Positions 3,352 through 12,925 of a stretch of DNA of 38,808 bases are shown one piece after another. The notes below the pieces were generated by a model that saw only the letters and a program-made list of their open reading frames with translations, had not been told where the DNA came from and made no database searches. This DNA is from a virus. How positions within the stretch are numbered: the first letter of the stretch is position 1; each line of letters begins with the position of its first letter. Position numbers and translations under genes: made by a program. The DNA is taken from the IMG/VR virus record IMGVR_UViG_3300046501_000669, positions 1 through 38,808 of that record. One strand, 5' to 3'.

Positions 3352-3761
3352 TCACTTTGGCTACGCGATGGTTTACACGCTCGTCGTTTAATAACTCGTA
3401 TCTTGAAGCGATTAAAAATATTCATGCGTAGCCGAACATTAGTGCGATAACCGTTCATAAAACTGCTCCAGACGCTTCTTGCCGACCTTGGCTTTCACGC
3501 TATTGCGGATTCGCAAAGCCGAAACAGACACACGCATCACTGTTGGCGGATCTCAAGCCTGAGATTTCGATATCCGCCGCTATGTGGAGTAGCAGGTGCG
3601 CAGACGATAAACATCCGTCAACATTGAGTACCTGATGCCCTATGAGGCGGTGCGAGCTTCAATATTCAGCAGTTGAACCAACGCGGCAGGCGGGCTGGCG
3701 GATGATGGCAATTTGCTGTATAGATCATAGATCGACATGGAATTAAAAAAAGGAGACGGAT
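3352..3761. other. 410-base non-genic stretch with relic
   Basis: No convincing full gene. On the minus strand 3439-3537 is an open frame of 32 codons beginning MRVSVSALRIRNS. It lacks a ribosome site, and its DNA (GCGAATCCGCA, then GCCAAGGTC) echoes a segment of the integrase gene at about 645-670, so it may be an integrase relic. Just beyond its 5' end, 3545-3578 is an inverted repeat GGCGGAT ... ATCCGCC with a second small repeat (CTCA/TGAG) inside it. The last 15 bases hold the ribosome site of the downstream repeat protein. Confidence 0.4.
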
Positions 3762-3986
3762 ATGGCACTGAGCAAGAAAGCGACTACTGATTTGATTCGT
3801 GTAGCCGCCGCAGGAGGTTCTCTCCAGATTGTCTGCGGCAAGGCAACATCCGATTTGATCCGTATTGCTGCGGCAGTATCTAGCGGCGGTGGACACCTTA
3901 CCGTTACCGGCGCAGGTGGGCGCGCTGTAACTGATTTGATTCGGATTGCGGCAGCAGCGCCTGGGCAGGTTACTTTCACGGATTAG
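3762..3986 (+). CDS. Three-repeat alpha/beta small protein
   Basis: A 74-residue protein with an excellent ribosome site (AAAAAAGGAGA, seven bases before ATG). Almost the whole chain is three copies of one unit: a short helix-like block [KR]A[TV][TS]DLIR[IV]AAA followed by Gly-rich turn and a beta-like block. The blocks start at residues 6, 27 and 54 and are followed by SLQIVC, HLTVTG and QVTFTD. The repeat is also visible in DNA at about 3786, 3849 and 3930. No signal peptide or membrane segment. It is a lone gene downstream of two accessory membrane genes and converges on the recombination operon. I do not know the function; an alpha/beta-solenoid protein-binding module or a self-assembling peptide are both possible. 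Confidence 0.75.
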   Translation: MALSKKATTDLIRVAAAGGSLQIVCGKATSDLIRIAAAVSSGGGHLTVTGAGGRAVTDLIRIAAAAPGQVTFTD

Positions 3987-4008
3987 CCATCATTTAGCCA
4001 AATGCGGG

Positions 4009-4036
4009 GTGGCTTTGAAGATTAGGCCACCTCTCA
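4009..4036. terminator. Hairpin between convergent genes
   Basis: An inverted repeat GGGGTGGC / GCCACCTC (one wobble or mismatch) with a 12-base loop lies between the converging repeat-protein gene and the ATPase gene. There is no T-run on either side, so intrinsic termination is only possible. The position between two gene ends is what favours it. Confidence 0.35.
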
Positions 4037-4103
4037 AGCGGTTTGCATTTCAGATCATACCTGGGCTGAGCATGCGCGGGTGGAGCACAAACAAAAAACG
4101 AGC

Positions 4104-5849
4104 CTATACAGAACCTTGCAACTCGGGGTCAACGGCGATCCCATCGGAAATCCAAATGGCCTGGATCTCCTGCGGAAGTCTCGTCGGCCTCTCTTTCAAC
4201 GTACCGCAAATCACAGCTGTTTCGATTTCCCCCGATTTGGCCAAGGGTCGCAGCAGGCCAATCATGCAGTCAGTGCGACTCGGCATGTCCAGCACATCGA
4301 AGCGATCCAGAACGACCATGCGTAGCTCTGACTGCAGGGCGATGACGACCGCCACCAGCGTATCGACGCGCCACTTCTCTGACTCGGAAAGTATCGGGTA
4401 CGCCCGGCCTGCTGCTGTAATGTTCATCTCGCTATCGATCCGCACTTTGTTCCACCCAGGCAAGGCAGACACGCGAGCTAGCGCTGTGTTGAGGGGCTTG
4501 AGCATCCCGGCCAAAATTTCGCCCTGAATCCCATCCGGAGCCAGCGCTTTCTCGATCAGCGTCCAATCCTTCACATCCTGGTGATACGCCGCCGCTTTGG
4601 TGTTCACTTTACCCGCATCGGCAAACAGGTTTCTCCGCTCCCGCAGTGCATTGAACTTCGCCCGCAACTGATCGGCTTTCAGCCGCATGGCATTGATTCC
4701 CGATTCAGTGCGTTCGATCAGTACCGCATCTACCGGCTCGACTTCTTCCTCTTGAATCGCCTGCAGATCCCGCGCCGCCGCCTCTGATTCGGCCACGGCG
4801 GTCATGTCGTTTTGCTGAGTGCGTTTCAACAGCTCTACAGCCTTGCGGGCGTTTGTCAGTTCCAGTGCCAGGTCGCTACGCGCCTTTACGTCGGCCTTCA
4901 AGCCTTGCGCCAGCTCCAGCTGGTTGCCTACGATTTTCAGCGCGGTACCGCAGCTTGGACAGTTGCAGCTTTCAGCCGCGAGATCAATGGCGTGAAGGTT
5001 CTGCTGCAGGTCGACCAGTTTCGGCTCCCAAGCGGCTAGTTCCTTTTCGGTGGCGTCCAGCTTGGTGAGGCGTCGATCCAAGAGGTTGGCTTTCTGCTCT
5101 GCGGCGTGTTGGCGAGTCTGATGGGTACCGTAGGCCAAACGCTTGGCCTCCAGCCCGCCAAGAAAGCTCAGGCCTTTTTCGACCTCGGCGGTGGCGCTGG
5201 CGTGTTCGGCCATCACCGCGTCCAGTTCGGCGCTGGTCGGTGCCTTACCTTCCGGAAGCTGAACGCTCCAGCCTTCGGCTTTCTCGTTGCCGTAGTTCTC
5301 TCCGGTGAGGGTTTTCCAAGCGCCTCGGGCTTCGGCGGCGTTGGTCTTGGCCTGCTCCTGGGCAGAGGTGAAGCCGCTCAACAGCAGCGGCTTGATGGAT
5401 TCGACCTTTTTTGTATCAGCACCACGTTCAATCAACCGGTTGGCTATGTCGGCGGGTCGAGCGCTGGAGCGGGTGAGGGCGAACAGCACTTTACGCCGCC
5501 CCTTGTCGTCCAGCGCTGCGAACGCGCCGGGGTTGAGAACATAGGGCAGAAACTCGCTACCGGAAATTTGGCTGCGTTCCGCCTTCCCGCCCGGGAGGGT
5601 GAAGCTGCTGGCCACGCCGTCGTGCTGCAGAACGATCTGTGCTTTTTTCTGGCCTTCAGTGATGAGCTGGCCGTAATCCTTCTTTAACGCAACTCGTGCT
5701 GACTCACCCAGGGCAAGCCCAATCGCCTCTTTGAGGCTGGATTTGCCCGCGCCGTTCGGACCTGCAATCAGTGTGATGGGGGCTGACAGATCAAGGTCGG
5801 CATGTGCCACGCCCTGAAAGTTCTCAACGTACAAGTGTTCAAGTCGCAT
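4104..5849 (-). CDS. SbcC/RecF-like ATPase with zinc hook
   Basis: A 581-residue SMC-like ATPase. The N-terminus has the Walker A loop GPNGAGKSS (residues 30-38) in a RecF/SbcC context (LYVENFQGV). Two coiled-coil arms flank a zinc-hook CPSC (Cys297 and Cys300, inside ESCNCPSCGT). The C-terminus has a degenerate signature SESEKW (488-493) and Walker B MVVLDRFDVLD (from 511). At 581 residues it is much shorter than bacterial SbcC, and no SbcD-type nuclease is adjacent; the Cas4-like nuclease two genes upstream could be its partner. It is the last gene of the leftward early operon, three bases after the preceding stop. Likely role is DNA-end processing or recombination with RecT, inferred from context. 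Confidence 0.88.
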   Translation of the reverse strand: MRLEHLYVENFQGVAHADLDLSAPITLIAGPNGAGKSSLKEAIGLALGESARVALKKDYGQLITEGQKKAQIVLQHDGVASSFTLPGGKAERSQISGSEFLPYVLNPGAFAALDDKGRRKVLFALTRSSARPADIANRLIERGADTKKVESIKPLLLSGFTSAQEQAKTNAAEARGAWKTLTGENYGNEKAEGWSVQLPEGKAPTSAELDAVMAEHASATAEVEKGLSFLGGLEAKRLAYGTHQTRQHAAEQKANLLDRRLTKLDATEKELAAWEPKLVDLQQNLHAIDLAAESCNCPSCGTALKIVGNQLELAQGLKADVKARSDLALELTNARKAVELLKRTQQNDMTAVAESEAAARDLQAIQEEEVEPVDAVLIERTESGINAMRLKADQLRAKFNALRERRNLFADAGKVNTKAAAYHQDVKDWTLIEKALAPDGIQGEILAGMLKPLNTALARVSALPGWNKVRIDSEMNITAAGRAYPILSESEKWRVDTLVAVVIALQSELRMVVLDRFDVLDMPSRTDCMIGLLRPLAKSGEIETAVICGTLKERPTRLPQEIQAIWISDGIAVDPELQGSV

Positions 5850-9673: not shown

Positions 9674-9868
9674 TCAGGACACGCTATCCGAGACGTGCTT
9701 CTGTTTTTGGTGCTGGATACGCTGATAAACCTCGTCCCGATGTACCGCTACCTCCTGCGGCGCGGCTATCCCGATGCGGACCTGCCTGCCATTGACGCCC
9801 AATATCGTTATCACTATGTCGTCATTGATGCGGATGGTTTCGCCTGCGCTACGGGTCAGAATTAACAT
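9674..9868 (-). CDS. csrA: CsrA/RsmA-family translational regulator
   Basis: 64 residues, the usual length. It starts [12 protein letters not shown] and has the conserved core [21 protein letters not shown]. The conserved L4, R6, V42-H43-R44 type residues that contact GGA motifs are all present. Such proteins dimerise and bind GGA in RNA hairpin loops, usually blocking translation. Start at 9868 follows AAGGAG by six bases. It sits in the leftward early operon downstream of a structured leader that contains GGA-loop hairpins (10293-10628), so self-control or competition with the host RsmA is plausible. It differs from host RsmA in the 7-18 region and in the C-terminal tail, which suggests a phage-adapted version. 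Confidence 0.95.
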
Positions 9869-9930: not shown

Positions 9931-10077
9931 TCACTGCGGGCTGAGTGTGTAATTCTCGATGCCGTATTTAATCGATAACGCCTCGTTAACCTCTTCGAGT
10001 GAGTAGGCGATTCCGCCATGGCCGTTAGGCCCTCTGTAGATGTACATTCCATTCTTCAATTCGTAGGTAAAAAACAC
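9931..10077 (-). CDS. 48-residue GTG-start protein
   Basis: Short gene not visible with length filters. Frame opens with GTG at 10077 preceded by GGAG at seven bases, product beginning [16 protein letters not shown] and containing [13 protein letters not shown]. It has the composition of a real small alpha/beta protein. Its ribosome site is one arm of the palindrome GGAGTGCTCC whose other arm serves the divergent gene at 10089. Function unknown. It is the first strongly supported gene downstream of PL. Confidence 0.55.
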
Positions 10078-10088: not shown

Positions 10089-10292
10089 ATGGTTGGAAAG
10101 ATTGAGCCGCGTTACGGGGCTGAGGTGTATGTCGGGGATCTCTATGACGTGTGTATCAAGCAGGCTCAGCCGGGTAACGATCATGTAGTTGTCATCCTGG
10201 GTCGCGACGAGGTGAAAAGCTTGATTCCGTTGTTGCAAGCAGCCATCAAGCGCTCCGAGGAGCTTGAGCAGGAGGAGGCTGAAAACGAATAG
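10089..10292 (+). CDS. Small conserved protein, opposite strand
   Basis: 67 residues, ribosome site GGAG six bases before ATG. The N-terminal part is beta-like (YGAEVYVGDLYDVCIKQA, VVVILGRDE) and the C-terminal part is an acidic helix (LQAAIKRSEELEQEEAENE). It is rightward within the leftward PL transcription unit, so PL transcription is antisense to it. Its promoter would have to lie inside the 48-codon gene to its left. A hairpin follows at 10301. Function unknown; a small antirepressor or modulator is one possibility but is inference only. Confidence 0.7.
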   Translation: MVGKIEPRYGAEVYVGDLYDVCIKQAQPGNDHVVVILGRDEVKSLIPLLQAAIKRSEELEQEEAENE

Positions 10293-10300
10293 TTCGAATG

Positions 10301-10332
10301 CTTCGCCGAGCTCAATTTAGAGTTTGGCGAAG
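10301..10332. terminator. Long hairpin after small gene
   Basis: CTTCGCC at 10301-10307 pairs with GGCGAAG at 10326-10332. With G-U pairs in the rightward RNA (gag with ttt) and CTC/GAG, the stem can reach 13 bp around an AATTTA loop. It starts nine bases after the stop of the 10089 gene. No T-run follows, so termination is uncertain. Confidence 0.45.
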
Positions 10333-10444
10333 CAGTGCCTCCTGCTTAAAGACAGATATATCTTTCTTGCACAGGCCAACGGTCGCGTTCCCGTTGGTGA
10401 ATTTCCAGGCGCCCGCTAGGGCCATGCCGCTGTACTCGTCACCA

Positions 10445-10462
10445 CGTAGCCTTCCGGCTACG
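10445..10462 (-). other. GGAA-tetraloop hairpin in PL leader
   Basis: Leftward RNA reads CGUAGCC-GGAA-GGCUACG: a perfect 7-bp stem closed by a GNRA-type tetraloop that is also a GGA motif. It resembles both boxB-like protein-binding hairpins and CsrA sites. It lies 112 bases downstream of boxA, farther than in lambda nut sites. Confidence 0.45.
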
Positions 10463-10573
10463 CCCTCCGAATGAGGTTTCCTATGCCCAGCGCCGACATG
10501 AGGTCGAATCACTGCATACCGTTGCGCGGTACGTCCGCTGGCTATGCATCGGCCAGCTCGGCGTCCATCAGGT

Positions 10574-10585
10574 TGTTAAAGAGCG
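10574..10585 (-). promoter_or_regulatory. boxA antitermination element
   Basis: The leftward strand reads CGCTCTTTAACA, a 12-base match to the boxA consensus recognised by NusB/S10 in lambdoid nut sites and rRNA leaders. It lies about 45 bases downstream of the expected PL start point, where a nutL would be. This supports both the PL call and processive antitermination of the leftward operon. Confidence 0.7.
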
Positions 10586-10634
10586 GCGGGCGCTCGGGGT
10601 GCCCTTCGCTGCGTTGCGCTGCGGCGATGGGTTA

Positions 10635-10663
10635 AATGTAAGCGTGCTTCCACCTAAATGCAA
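10635..10663 (-). promoter_or_regulatory. PL: leftward early promoter
   Basis: On the minus strand TTGCAT (10663-10658) and TACATT (10640-10635) are separated by 17 bases. One operator ends in the -35 element and the other ends in the -10 element, exactly as at PR. The element matches are partial, but the shared layout with PR, the boxA downstream and the leftward operon make this a good assignment. A rightward reading (TTCCAC and TATGTT, 17-base spacer) is also possible and would serve the 10844 gene. Confidence 0.6.
10639..10650. promoter_or_regulatory. Repressor operator OL-a
   Basis: TAAGCGTGCTTC, a near-perfect palindrome AAGCNNGCTT. It overlaps the -10 element of PL. Same consensus as the sites at PR, so it should bind the same CI/Cro pair. 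Confidence 0.7.
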
Positions 10664-10672
10664 GCGCGCTTA
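10661..10672. promoter_or_regulatory. Repressor operator OL-b
   Basis: CAAGCGCGCTTA, 22 bases from OL-a (two helical turns), overlapping the PL -35 element. Both OL sites are preceded by AAATG on the plus strand, suggesting a small extended consensus. Confidence 0.7.
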
Positions 10673-10843
10673 TGTTTAAGCCGCGAGAAAAAGTAAGTCA
10701 TGCTTCTTTTTCGTCGACTCATAGGGAGGGGAACAAGCTAATGGGAGCGGGAAGGAGGGGCGAGATTTCCATTTCCTTTGCGAAGCAAATGTTGCGCTTT
10801 ATCTGCAAAATACGCGCTACGAATATCTGAGTAAGGTGACTTC

Positions 10844-11485
10844 ATGATTTCAGCCCGGCTACGAGCGAAAATGGAGGAGGTTGGAATAGGCGAAAACGAG
10901 TTGGGCAGGCGCTCTTGCGTGCCTCAGCCAACTATCAATCGCATCCTATCGGGCGAAAGTGAGAGTCCGCGAAAGCTGACAATAGAGCGATTGGCTCAAG
11001 CTTTGGAAATCGCTCCAGATTGGTTGTTATTTGGTACAGGGCTTCCCCCTGATCAGCAGAAAAACCCAAGGCTGGACGATACCTGCGCGGTGCCTTTAAT
11101 TGATTTCTACTCAGCTACCTACTGGCTCTCTCCCGGGCATGGCAGTGACCGACTTGCGATTCTCGGCCATCTTCGTTGCCCTGTCAGGGTCGGCCCACGT
11201 GCGTTTGCATTTCATATGCCCAACGATTCAATGTTTACGATGCAGGCAGGTAAGCTGATAGGTGAAGATTGGTTGGTATTCGTGGACCCAGAGGTCCTCG
11301 CCACTCCCGGTGACGTGGTCCTTGCATCAATCTGTGGTCCTGATCCCGTCGTCGGAGTTTTGGTTAAACACGGAAGCCGAACTTATGTGAAGCCCGCCAA
11401 CGATCGATACCCGCTGGAGGAGGTCGGCAGTTGTAGGGCTGATTGGTACTTGGGGAAGGCTGTCTTCACGGGGTGTGCGATCTAG
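10844..11485 (+). CDS. Second LexA/CI-fold repressor-like regulator
   Basis: 213 residues. The N-terminus is an XRE helix-turn-helix (LGRRSCVPQPTINRILSGES, with IAPDWLLFGTG after it). The C-terminus has the S24/LexA fold: FHMPNDSM (Ser129 in the usual GDSM position), FVDPE, GDVVLAS and YVKPANDRYP. The segment VPLIDFYSATYW (83-94) matches the usual cleavage region, but the Ala-Gly scissile pair is Ala-Thr, and no lysine falls at the dyad position when YVKP is aligned to lambda CI FLQP; Lys175 is about four residues off. It is therefore probably not self-cleaving. It converges on the cI gene across a strong terminator. Ribosome site AAGGTGA before ATG. It may be a second repressor or an antirepressor. 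Confidence 0.8.
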   Translation: MISARLRAKMEEVGIGENELGRRSCVPQPTINRILSGESESPRKLTIERLAQALEIAPDWLLFGTGLPPDQQKNPRLDDTCAVPLIDFYSATYWLSPGHGSDRLAILGHLRCPVRVGPRAFAFHMPNDSMFTMQAGKLIGEDWLVFVDPEVLATPGDVVLASICGPDPVVGVLVKHGSRTYVKPANDRYPLEEVGSCRADWYLGKAVFTGCAI

Positions 11486-11621: not shown

Positions 11622-12323
11622 TTACGCGATCACTGGGCGGCGATAATACCCGTAGATAACGCCGAAAATCTCATCGCCTTCCTCAAGGTTGATCAGGTCA
11701 AATTGACTGTTCAACGGCTTGAGCATGTCCTGGCCACCATCGCGCGTCAGGATTCTGAAAATCGGATTTTTCTTCCCCCGCTGCAGCACCAAGACTGGCG
11801 CACCAATAGTCGGCGCACGGTCTGGATCAACGAAGATGATGGTGTTGTGTGGGTAGCTATCTTCGTTCGGGTTCGTGTTACGCATTGCCTCTCCCTCTAC
11901 CACCAGAGCGAAGCCGCGAGGTCCTACGTTATCTGGGCTTGGCATCATATTCTCCATGCTTTCAGATACAACTGTATCCGATTTGGAGCGTAGCCACGCC
12001 GCATCCCACGAAATCAGGGGAACGGATATAAGAGGGATCGGTGTATGTCGGACATCGTTTTGATCCGTATCCAGAGCCCCATCCTGAGCATCTGAACCGG
12101 CTGTCATTTCACCTTCACCACTGATCAACCAGTCGACAGTTGTTCCGTACGCCCTGGCAATCGACAGAAGATTTTCGTGGCGGATGCTTCCCGTCCTGCC
12201 GCTGAACCATTGGCTCACTGCTGCATAGCTAATGCCACATACACGAGCGAGCGTAGGCCGAATGCTTCGGGCCGGCACATGGTTTGCGATGAGTAACTGC
12301 TGGATTCGATCGATAACGTTCAT
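11622..12323 (-). CDS. cI: CI-like phage repressor, non-cleavable type
   Basis: 233 residues. N-terminal helix-turn-helix (LARVCGISYAAVSQWFSGR, then TVDWLISGEGE) and C-terminal S24 fold with FVDPDRAP and LKPLNSQF, which aligns without gaps to lambda CI FLQPLNPQY. The catalytic serine (usual GDSM) is Ala146 in VEGEAM, the catalytic lysine (lambda K192) is Arg190 in IFRILTRD, and the cleavage region VPLISWDAAW lacks the Ala-Gly pair. RecA-stimulated self-cleavage is therefore not expected. The gene diverges from cro with operators between. The start has no ribosome site: TAGTAT lies seven bases before ATG on the minus strand, so the mRNA may be leaderless as at lambda PRM. It should hold PL and PR off in the lysogen. 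Confidence 0.9.
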   Translation of the reverse strand: MNVIDRIQQLLIANHVPARSIRPTLARVCGISYAAVSQWFSGRTGSIRHENLLSIARAYGTTVDWLISGEGEMTAGSDAQDGALDTDQNDVRHTPIPLISVPLISWDAAWLRSKSDTVVSESMENMMPSPDNVGPRGFALVVEGEAMRNTNPNEDSYPHNTIIFVDPDRAPTIGAPVLVLQRGKKNPIFRILTRDGGQDMLKPLNSQFDLINLEEGDEIFGVIYGYYRRPVIA

Positions 12324-12361: not shown

Positions 12362-12388
12362 CTTTGTATATGTAAGCATGCTTATACT
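12359..12388 (+). promoter_or_regulatory. PR: rightward early promoter
   Basis: TTGCTT (12359-12364), 18-base spacer, TATACT (12383-12388). It precedes cro and the rightward early operon. The perfect palindrome at 12373-12384 sits in the spacer up to the -10, so repressor binding would block polymerase. Confidence 0.75.
12373..12384. promoter_or_regulatory. Repressor operator OR-a
   Basis: TAAGCATGCTTA, a perfect 12-base palindrome and the best match to the operator consensus in the window. It overlaps the PR -10 element. Confidence 0.8.
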
Positions 12389-12413: not shown

Positions 12414-12614
12414 ATGACTCGTTCTCAAGCTATTAAGTTTTTTGGCGGCAAGGCGGAAATCGCACGGGCATTGGATATTTCCTACGCCGCAGTCCAGCAG
12501 TGGGGAGAAGAAATCCCACTGCTACGTCAGCACCAGCTAGAAAAAATCAGCAACGGCGCGCTAAAAGTTAGCGAAACGCGCTCGGTCAATGCTCCAGATC
12601 GCTCGGTTGCCTGA
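12414..12614 (+). CDS. cro: Cro-like repressor
   Basis: 66 residues, AGGAGG ribosome site six bases before ATG. The body (AIKFFGGKAEIARALDISYAAVQQWGEEIPLLRQHQLEKIS) is the Cro-type helix-turn-helix fold of lambdoid phages. It diverges from cI with the OR operators between and is the first gene of the PR operon. It should compete with CI for the same sites and favour lytic growth. Confidence 0.9.
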   Translation: MTRSQAIKFFGGKAEIARALDISYAAVQQWGEEIPLLRQHQLEKISNGALKVSETRSVNAPDRSVA

Positions 12615-12616
12615 CC

Positions 12617-12925
12617 ATGGCAGTCCCCCAATTAAGCCCGGAGCAGGTGACAAGGGCTCGCAAGAATTTGCACTTTGTCTTGCAGCGTGTGACATCGATG
12701 GGCAACGCGCCCATCGCGCTTGCAATGGGTTGCGACGAAGCAACGATCAGCCGAATGCGCCCTGAAAAATTCGAACAGTTTTCGCAGATCCTGGCAGTGC
12801 TGGGATTGAAGGTCGTTCCGTGCGAGATGAGGTGCTTCAACGAACGTGATATCGAGATGTTCATTCATGGCTCGAAACGCTGGATGGAGCATATCCAAGG
12901 CGTTGAGCAGCTTGAGGAGAACTGA
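12617..12925 (+). CDS. cII: CII-like transcription activator
   Basis: 102 residues, beginning two bases after the cro stop. The central part (IALAMGCDEATISRMRPEKFEQFSQILAVLGLKVV) matches the CII family helix-turn-helix, and the gene order cro-cII-O is lambdoid. CII activates the lysogeny promoters for cI and int in lambda. Here I could not find a convincing CII-dependent promoter: a near-match GCAA-N6-GCAC lies at 12660-12673 but lacks a good -10. Confidence 0.85.
   Translation: MAVPQLSPEQVTRARKNLHFVLQRVTSMGNAPIALAMGCDEATISRMRPEKFEQFSQILAVLGLKVVPCEMRCFNERDIEMFIHGSKRWMEHIQGVEQLEEN

Follow-up and report, generated by a model that had tools for sequence, protein, structure and literature searches.

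The minus strand of positions 10628-10365, in the 38,808-nt stretch of viral DNA analysed here (the window; the record, at 38.8 kb, may be incomplete), is, judged from its conservation in related phages, the leader RNA of the leftward early promoter, PL. The conserved structured part of this leader is about 220 nt long, carries a boxA at its head and ends in ...UGCAAG, and it probably serves as a cis-acting antitermination RNA at PL that works through boxA and the Nus factors. The maintenance of early transcription in lambdoid Pseudomonas phages is poorly described, and the leader offers a shared element with a defined structure and testable helices. Its parts and neighbours in the window are as follows.

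12374-12383: third operator palindrome, AAGCATGCTT, between cI and cro, at PR
10640-10671: operator palindromes on PL, AAGCGTGCTT (10640-10649) and AAGCGCGCTT (10662-10671), of the form AAGCRYGCTT
10635-10663, minus strand: PL promoter as read from the sequence, with -35 TTGCAT (10663-10658), -10 TACATT (10640-10635) and a 17-nt spacer
10365-10628, minus strand: class I leader RNA proper, reaching from the predicted start at PL as far as the conserved ...GGCCUGUGCAAG, kept in 63 class I loci and supported by covariation
10590-10628, minus strand: 5' segment ahead of boxA, its hairpins variable, from a single-sequence fold and, by inspection, from complementary stems of changing sequence in homologues
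10574-10585, minus strand: boxA CGCTCTTTAACA (= CGCUCUUUAACA), a NusB/NusE-type site of the rRNA kind
10537-10557, minus strand: hairpin H1, GCUGGC-CGAUGCAUA-GCCAGC
10515-10533, minus strand: hairpin H2, CGUACCG-CGCAA-CGGUAUG
10488-10514, minus strand: hairpin H3, with an inner stem
10480-10486, minus strand: 5' strand of long-range helix P4, GCAUAGG, pairing with 10375-10369
10445-10462, minus strand: hairpin H6, a perfect 7 bp, CGUAGCC-GGAA-GGCUACG
10376-10397, minus strand: hairpin H7, CCAACGG-GAACGCGA-CCGUUGG
10369-10375, minus strand: 3' strand of P4, CCUGUGC
10089-10333, plus strand: open reading frame with a 3' hairpin, outside the leader, between it and csrA
9674-9868, minus strand: csrA (PF02599; Pfam 1.2e-24), in the same leftward operon

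Homologues were gathered by blastn, by scanning viral contigs and genomes for patterns, and with a 108-nt covariance model (R1). This gave 87 non-redundant phage or prophage loci, of which 63 belong to class I and 24 to class II, which is divergent. Among named phages, blastn matched 18 Pseudomonas phage records, including vB_PaS_IME307 (5' segment and boxA only); a class II query had no match there, and the class I leader had none in plasmids or E. coli. All accepted matches in the named genome collection are to Pseudomonas. Among 399 genomes sampled from one Pseudomonas genus, 13 had strong class I matches and four more (L071, L072, L073 and L079) class II leaders; wider samples, with 295 genomes from the order and 369 from the class, added no strong match. 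Core-model matches of 23-27 bits in other genomes include two true class II leaders (L073 and L079) and several that have no boxA and look like chance (L074-L076, L080 and L083); four pattern matches (L048, L050, L051 and L056) were also dropped as chance. The phages that carry the leader are diverse in kind, an F116-like Hollowayvirus among them, and a single copy of it was found in each of ten leader-bearing virus records searched whole and in each of five bacterial genomes.

The case for a conserved structure rests on these homologues, because the minimum free energy of the window leader alone is unremarkable (z = -1.17) and single-sequence folding is insufficient. The interval 10293-10628, in which the earlier note had counted at least five inverted repeats, does hold several: four perfect repeats of at least 6 bp (loop 3-12), against 0.79 in shuffles, with 1 of 300 shuffles reaching four. 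Covariation among homologues, which the same note had proposed as a check, bears the structure out. In an alignment (A2) of 39 distinct class I sequences, 96.4% of the cells of a 40-pair structure hold standard pairs, and 97 cells show double-sided changes compared with 23.8 in shuffled and 1-12 in slid controls; part of these changes mirrors the split into sub-types A and B, so that the number of events is below that of cells. When the partners are slid by 1-3 columns, pairing falls to 22-40%. This excess of compensatory changes over both kinds of control marks the leader, as far as aligned sequences can tell, as a structured RNA family. Seventeen pairs have a G-U state and none an A-C state, which identifies the RNA as the minus strand, running leftward from PL. 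The transcribed strand was decided on these states, with no reliance on single-sequence folding, in which the plus strand of the interval folds better than the minus, partly through a hairpin at 10300-10333.

Long-range helix P4 is, on the alignment, the most telling of the leader. Its consensus GCAYAGG pairs with CCURUGC about 120 nt further on in 39/39 sequences, and every cell of its seven pairs is paired. Two of these pairs have changed on both sides, one in 16 sequences and one in 3, and the states seen are C-G, U-A and U-G at one position and A-U and G-C at another. In H2, a G-C to C-G swap is kept in 15 of the 39 sequences; in H3, three pairs are changed on both sides, all of them from the same 10 type B sequences. 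The stem of H6 covaries in type A, and that of H7 covaries beneath a loop that reads RNRNNCGA in both classes. The loops GAUGCAUA and CGCAA are nearly invariant, and the GCAUA within the loop of H1 is also found in class II. A pairing of boxA with the following GGACGC appears in folds and is broken by changes in some homologues. Class II has its own compensatory changes, recovered independently by RNAalifold, and despite great divergence its layout is common to class I: boxA, GCCGAG, a hairpin with GCAUA in its loop, a second hairpin, the long-range helix and a last hairpin with RNRNNCGA.

The leader is not protein-coding, to judge from the fate of its reading frames in homologues, which upholds the earlier view that no good protein frame explains the structure. 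The 66-codon GTG frame starts with GTG in one of 39 homologues, that of this window, reads GCG or GCA at that place elsewhere, and is broken in most of them; stop codons interrupt all three minus-strand frames in nearly every type A core. On the plus strand, the frame 10471-10635 is open in 24/24 type A cores with a synonymous share of 0.26 against a neutral 0.24, and on these figures it is a by-product of the conserved RNA. The PP9W2 and D14H records annotate hypothetical proteins across parts of the leader.

The leader is shorter than the interval 10293-10628 first put forward: the structured RNA at 10365-10628 stands, and 10293-10364 is to be trimmed. The hairpin at 10300-10333 is the strongest in the interval and lies 8 nt beyond the stop codon of an ORF on the plus strand (10089-10292; 67 codons), which is transcribed against the left operon. 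Since it pairs over its full length only as plus-strand RNA and follows that ORF, it is probably outside the leader and probably belongs to the opposite-strand gene. For the ORF, phages gave no homologue and Pfam and PHROG no family; 10089-10333 looks like an inserted foreign gene. A 48-codon GTG frame further along (9931-10076, minus strand) reads like a real small protein and has no phage match.

A boxA had been read in the leader from the start, and it is confirmed. The exact CGCTCTTTA occurs once in the window, at 10585-10574 on the minus strand; with one mismatch allowed there are five matches, no more than chance. As a control for circularity, viral contigs were searched for H1 with no boxA requirement, and a boxA-like sequence stood at near-fixed spacing in 74/74 viral loci so retrieved, the exact GCTCTTTAA in 70 of them and a form with a single change (ACTCTTTAA, GCTCTTTCA or GCTCTTTAC) in the others. 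On this linkage boxA and H1 are inherited as one unit. In class I, boxA precedes the GCCGAG of H1 by 13 nt; in class II it precedes GAGCC by 14-15 nt. The motif CGCUCUUUAACAA matches the rRNA consensus. BoxA recruits NusB/NusE, shields rRNA from Rho and has been reused by phages (PMC4807359; its function and rRNA role are also described in PMC5725501).

Placement at PL is read from several features. The hexamers of PL in the window are weak (7/12 consensus matches) and absent from the promoter scan list; among homologues, a promoter with at least 9/12 matches lies upstream of boxA in 49/85, compared with 5/85 shuffles, and in most of them the -10 ends 40-80 nt before boxA. The palindrome AAGCRYGCTT occurs three times in the whole window, at the operators only, where 0.42 would be expected. 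The early region is lambdoid, with CI (11622-12323), a P22-type Cro (12414-12614) and a CII-like gene (12617-12925), and a repressor gene upstream, reading towards the leader, was found with a small profile in 42/55 loci with enough flank (single-sequence searches for CI found only 21/55). From the leader the early left operon runs leftward for about 10 kb here. A second repressor-like gene, with HTH and S24-peptidase domains (10844-11485, plus strand), lies beside PL and reads towards cI.

What follows the leader varies. In 8 of the 10 leader phages compared, it is succeeded by one of two exchangeable structured elements (AGAGAU...GCUCUCC...GGAAAGC, or a hairpin GAUUUC...GAUGC...GCAU...GAAAUC) and then by differing first genes. 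The downstream element switches abruptly at the leader end, no intrinsic terminator is seen there, and several loci have the first start codon only tens of nucleotides beyond the leader end. By inspection, the window retains the second element only in degraded form before csrA, with the plus-strand ORF separating it from the leader. In L003, L004, L008, L041 and others, AGAGAUUACC[stem]GGAUGCUCUCC[stem]CGGAAAGC lies between leader and first gene, and the element in L003, L004 and L008 has no Rfam match at the gathering threshold; in L002, L006, L016, L018, L087 and others, a hairpin GAUUUC-ACU-GAUGC...GCAU-UGG-GAAAUC precedes the first gene. The first left-operon genes, which differ between phages, include none of an antiterminator family. 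With query ORFs from the window and D14S only, no protein was common to all ten leader phages; the widest noticed, a NinB homologue, is present in 8/10 and absent from the window. The leader RNA is therefore more widely shared than any protein found, which favours an RNA that acts with host factors. Although csrA, as first reported, is encoded on the same leftward transcript unit, it lies within 3.5 kb of the leader in 14/76 loci and never with class II, and by this distribution it is an optional passenger.

The sequence comparisons show that the leader is conserved, which strand forms the RNA, how it folds, that it is linked to boxA, where it lies, that each phage record has one copy, that it is non-coding and that the phages compared have no protein in common. 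It is from boxA, the fold, the PL position, the single copy and the independence from particular genes that we infer antitermination in cis, the steps of Nus recruitment, polymerase contact and read-through being those of a model. Polymerase leaving PL would transcribe boxA first, and boxA would recruit host NusB/NusE together with NusA, NusG and perhaps SuhB. The RNA would then fold into hairpins H1-H3 and the domain closed by P4, with H6 and H7, and would stay with or stabilise the modified polymerase, which could then pass the terminators of the early left operon, those that depend on Rho and possibly intrinsic ones too. The leader would act in cis with host factors only or mainly, as an autonomous module ahead of differing first genes. 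The earlier suggestion that the leader supports antitermination is thus retained, most likely by way of boxA. It is tempting, and somewhat short of an even bet, to go further and suggest that this large RNA of about 220 nt, in its two divergent classes, with boxA alone makes Pseudomonas RNA polymerase termination-resistant through host factors only, in an N-free scheme that would join boxA antitermination of the rRNA type to docking on the polymerase like that of put.

Known systems supply the elements of this model. In phage HK022, the PL leader RNA itself can modify RNA polymerase; its put RNA, like the leader, is a cis-acting structured RNA just downstream of PL, proposed to work without a dedicated phage protein (PMC9378689). 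Put is about 70 nt long, has two stem-loops, binds the beta' zinc-binding domain and is found at both PL and PR (PMC9378689), whereas the leader, of about 220 nt, contains at least five hairpins besides its boxA and long-range helix and occurs once per phage. The R1 core model found nothing in 20.8 kb of HK022 spanning the early region (L155), and by length, layout and copy number the leader is not a member of the put family. Leader antitermination in rRNA operons (boxB-boxA-boxC, with NusA/B/E/G and SuhB) likewise has an rRNA-type boxA after a hairpin, and a shield from Rho, which we infer for the leader too; unlike it, the leader has a phage promoter, a large conserved fold after boxA and an mRNA operon. 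The EAR RNA of the Bacillus eps operon is also a large structured leader RNA with a proposed role in processive antitermination, although it works with LoaP, a NusG paralogue, and none is seen here.

The single copy counts against antitermination, since put and lambda nut stand at both PL and PR. The strongest rival, still an unlikely one, is a lambda-type nut site, in which boxA and a hairpin would serve an unrecognised phage N-like protein and the rest of the RNA would be scaffold. In its favour, the leader lies at PL in a lambdoid early region (CI, Cro and CII) and, as in lambda, has hairpins after its boxA; the loop of H2 measures 5 nt, that of H6 is GNRA-like, and N proteins diverge fast. 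Yet no protein is common to the leader phages, the first left-operon genes vary with none of an antiterminator family, and a search with N36 gave no match over the cut-off (its control gave no true positive, N diverging fast). There is no nutR-like second copy at PR, no short boxA-boxB layout and no boxB-like hairpin with a purine-rich pentaloop next to boxA, the first loop having 9 nt in class I and 7 nt in class II; the loop of H6 does not adjoin boxA but follows it at a distance of about 110 nt, and the boxA is of the rRNA type, unlike that of lambda nut. On the features compared, the leader shares the boxA of lambda nut, lacks its boxB and second site, and is not a member of that family. 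A fast-evolving N-like protein below BLAST sensitivity is conceivable, though the RNA that it would target is very similar across class I.

Somewhat less probable again is that boxA and the Nus factors act on the leader mainly to repress translation of the first left gene or to tune its Rho termination, in the manner of suhB or of lambda N feedback. At suhB, boxA and the Nus factors can act to repress translation and to promote termination by Rho, a point that weighs against the antitermination model, and control of this kind has been described both there and for lambda N downstream of nutL (PMC5725501); the short distance to the first start codon in several loci would suit it. The first genes, however, are so diverse that a dedicated translational switch would have to suit them all, and a conserved fold of about 220 nt seems to exceed what suhB-like control needs. 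More doubtful still is a phage small RNA processed from the PL leader and acting in trans on host RNA or protein: the autonomy of the module, the near-invariant loops and the abrupt switch at the leader end are consistent with it, but the near-fixed boxA spacing is left unexplained, the leader is at PL wherever context was examined, and the leader end shows no intrinsic terminator.

The CsrA part of the earlier note is not supported. The leader does have the several GGA motifs noted (seven), but shuffled sequences have 5.2 +/- 1.7, and A(N)GGA occurs 2 times versus 2.3, so neither is enriched. The perfect 7-bp hairpin with GGA in its tetraloop is present at 10462-10445 (minus strand; H6, loop GGAA), and its loop reads GGAGA, GGUGA, GGCGA, GGGGA or GGUAA in homologues. 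As GGA gives way to GGU, GGC or GGG while type A homologues keep GGNRA with one exception (GGAUA), the conserved thing is a GNRA-like loop and not GGA; GAUGGACG, too, reads GAUGAACG in many homologues. CsrA/RsmA binding, whether as autoregulation of the phage csrA or as a sponge for host RsmA, is thus highly improbable, for although csrA shares the operon here and in 13 other loci and phage csrA genes are already known in Pseudomonas (PMC7366521), csrA is missing near 62/76 leaders, every class II locus included, and the leader matches no Csr/Rsm small RNA in Rfam. The overall reading offered earlier therefore keeps its structured, non-coding PL leader and loses its CsrA/RsmA partner, which corrects a tempting interpretation.

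Across the window and seven relatives, no family of Rfam 15, CsrB/RsmZ/RsmY, C4 and isrK included, gave a match at the gathering score; weak matches to mir-302 (10625-10685), P2 and gyrA (minus strand) are chance, with high E-values and scores far below gathering. In the open-access literature, to which the search was confined (subscription literature lay outside its scope), we found no description of the leader RNA and no nut, put or N equivalent for lambdoid Pseudomonas phages. The principle proposed is already known; the leader RNA itself, which lacks defining features of put and of nut, is not. If the mechanism holds, the leader would add a new member to the RNAs that reprogram RNA polymerase, and it would offer a compact tool for long read-through in Pseudomonas.

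Finally, phage vB_PaS_IME307 (L006, about 3800-4110, minus strand), which is D3-like, shares the 5' segment and boxA and then continues into a different RNA. The whole-record search found no leader copy in it, and R1 gave 13 bits (E 0.09) on this stretch; from its shared head, the RNA is possibly a third class of leader. The GAUUUC...GAAAUC hairpin occurs twice in the same phage, at 3675 and 3900.
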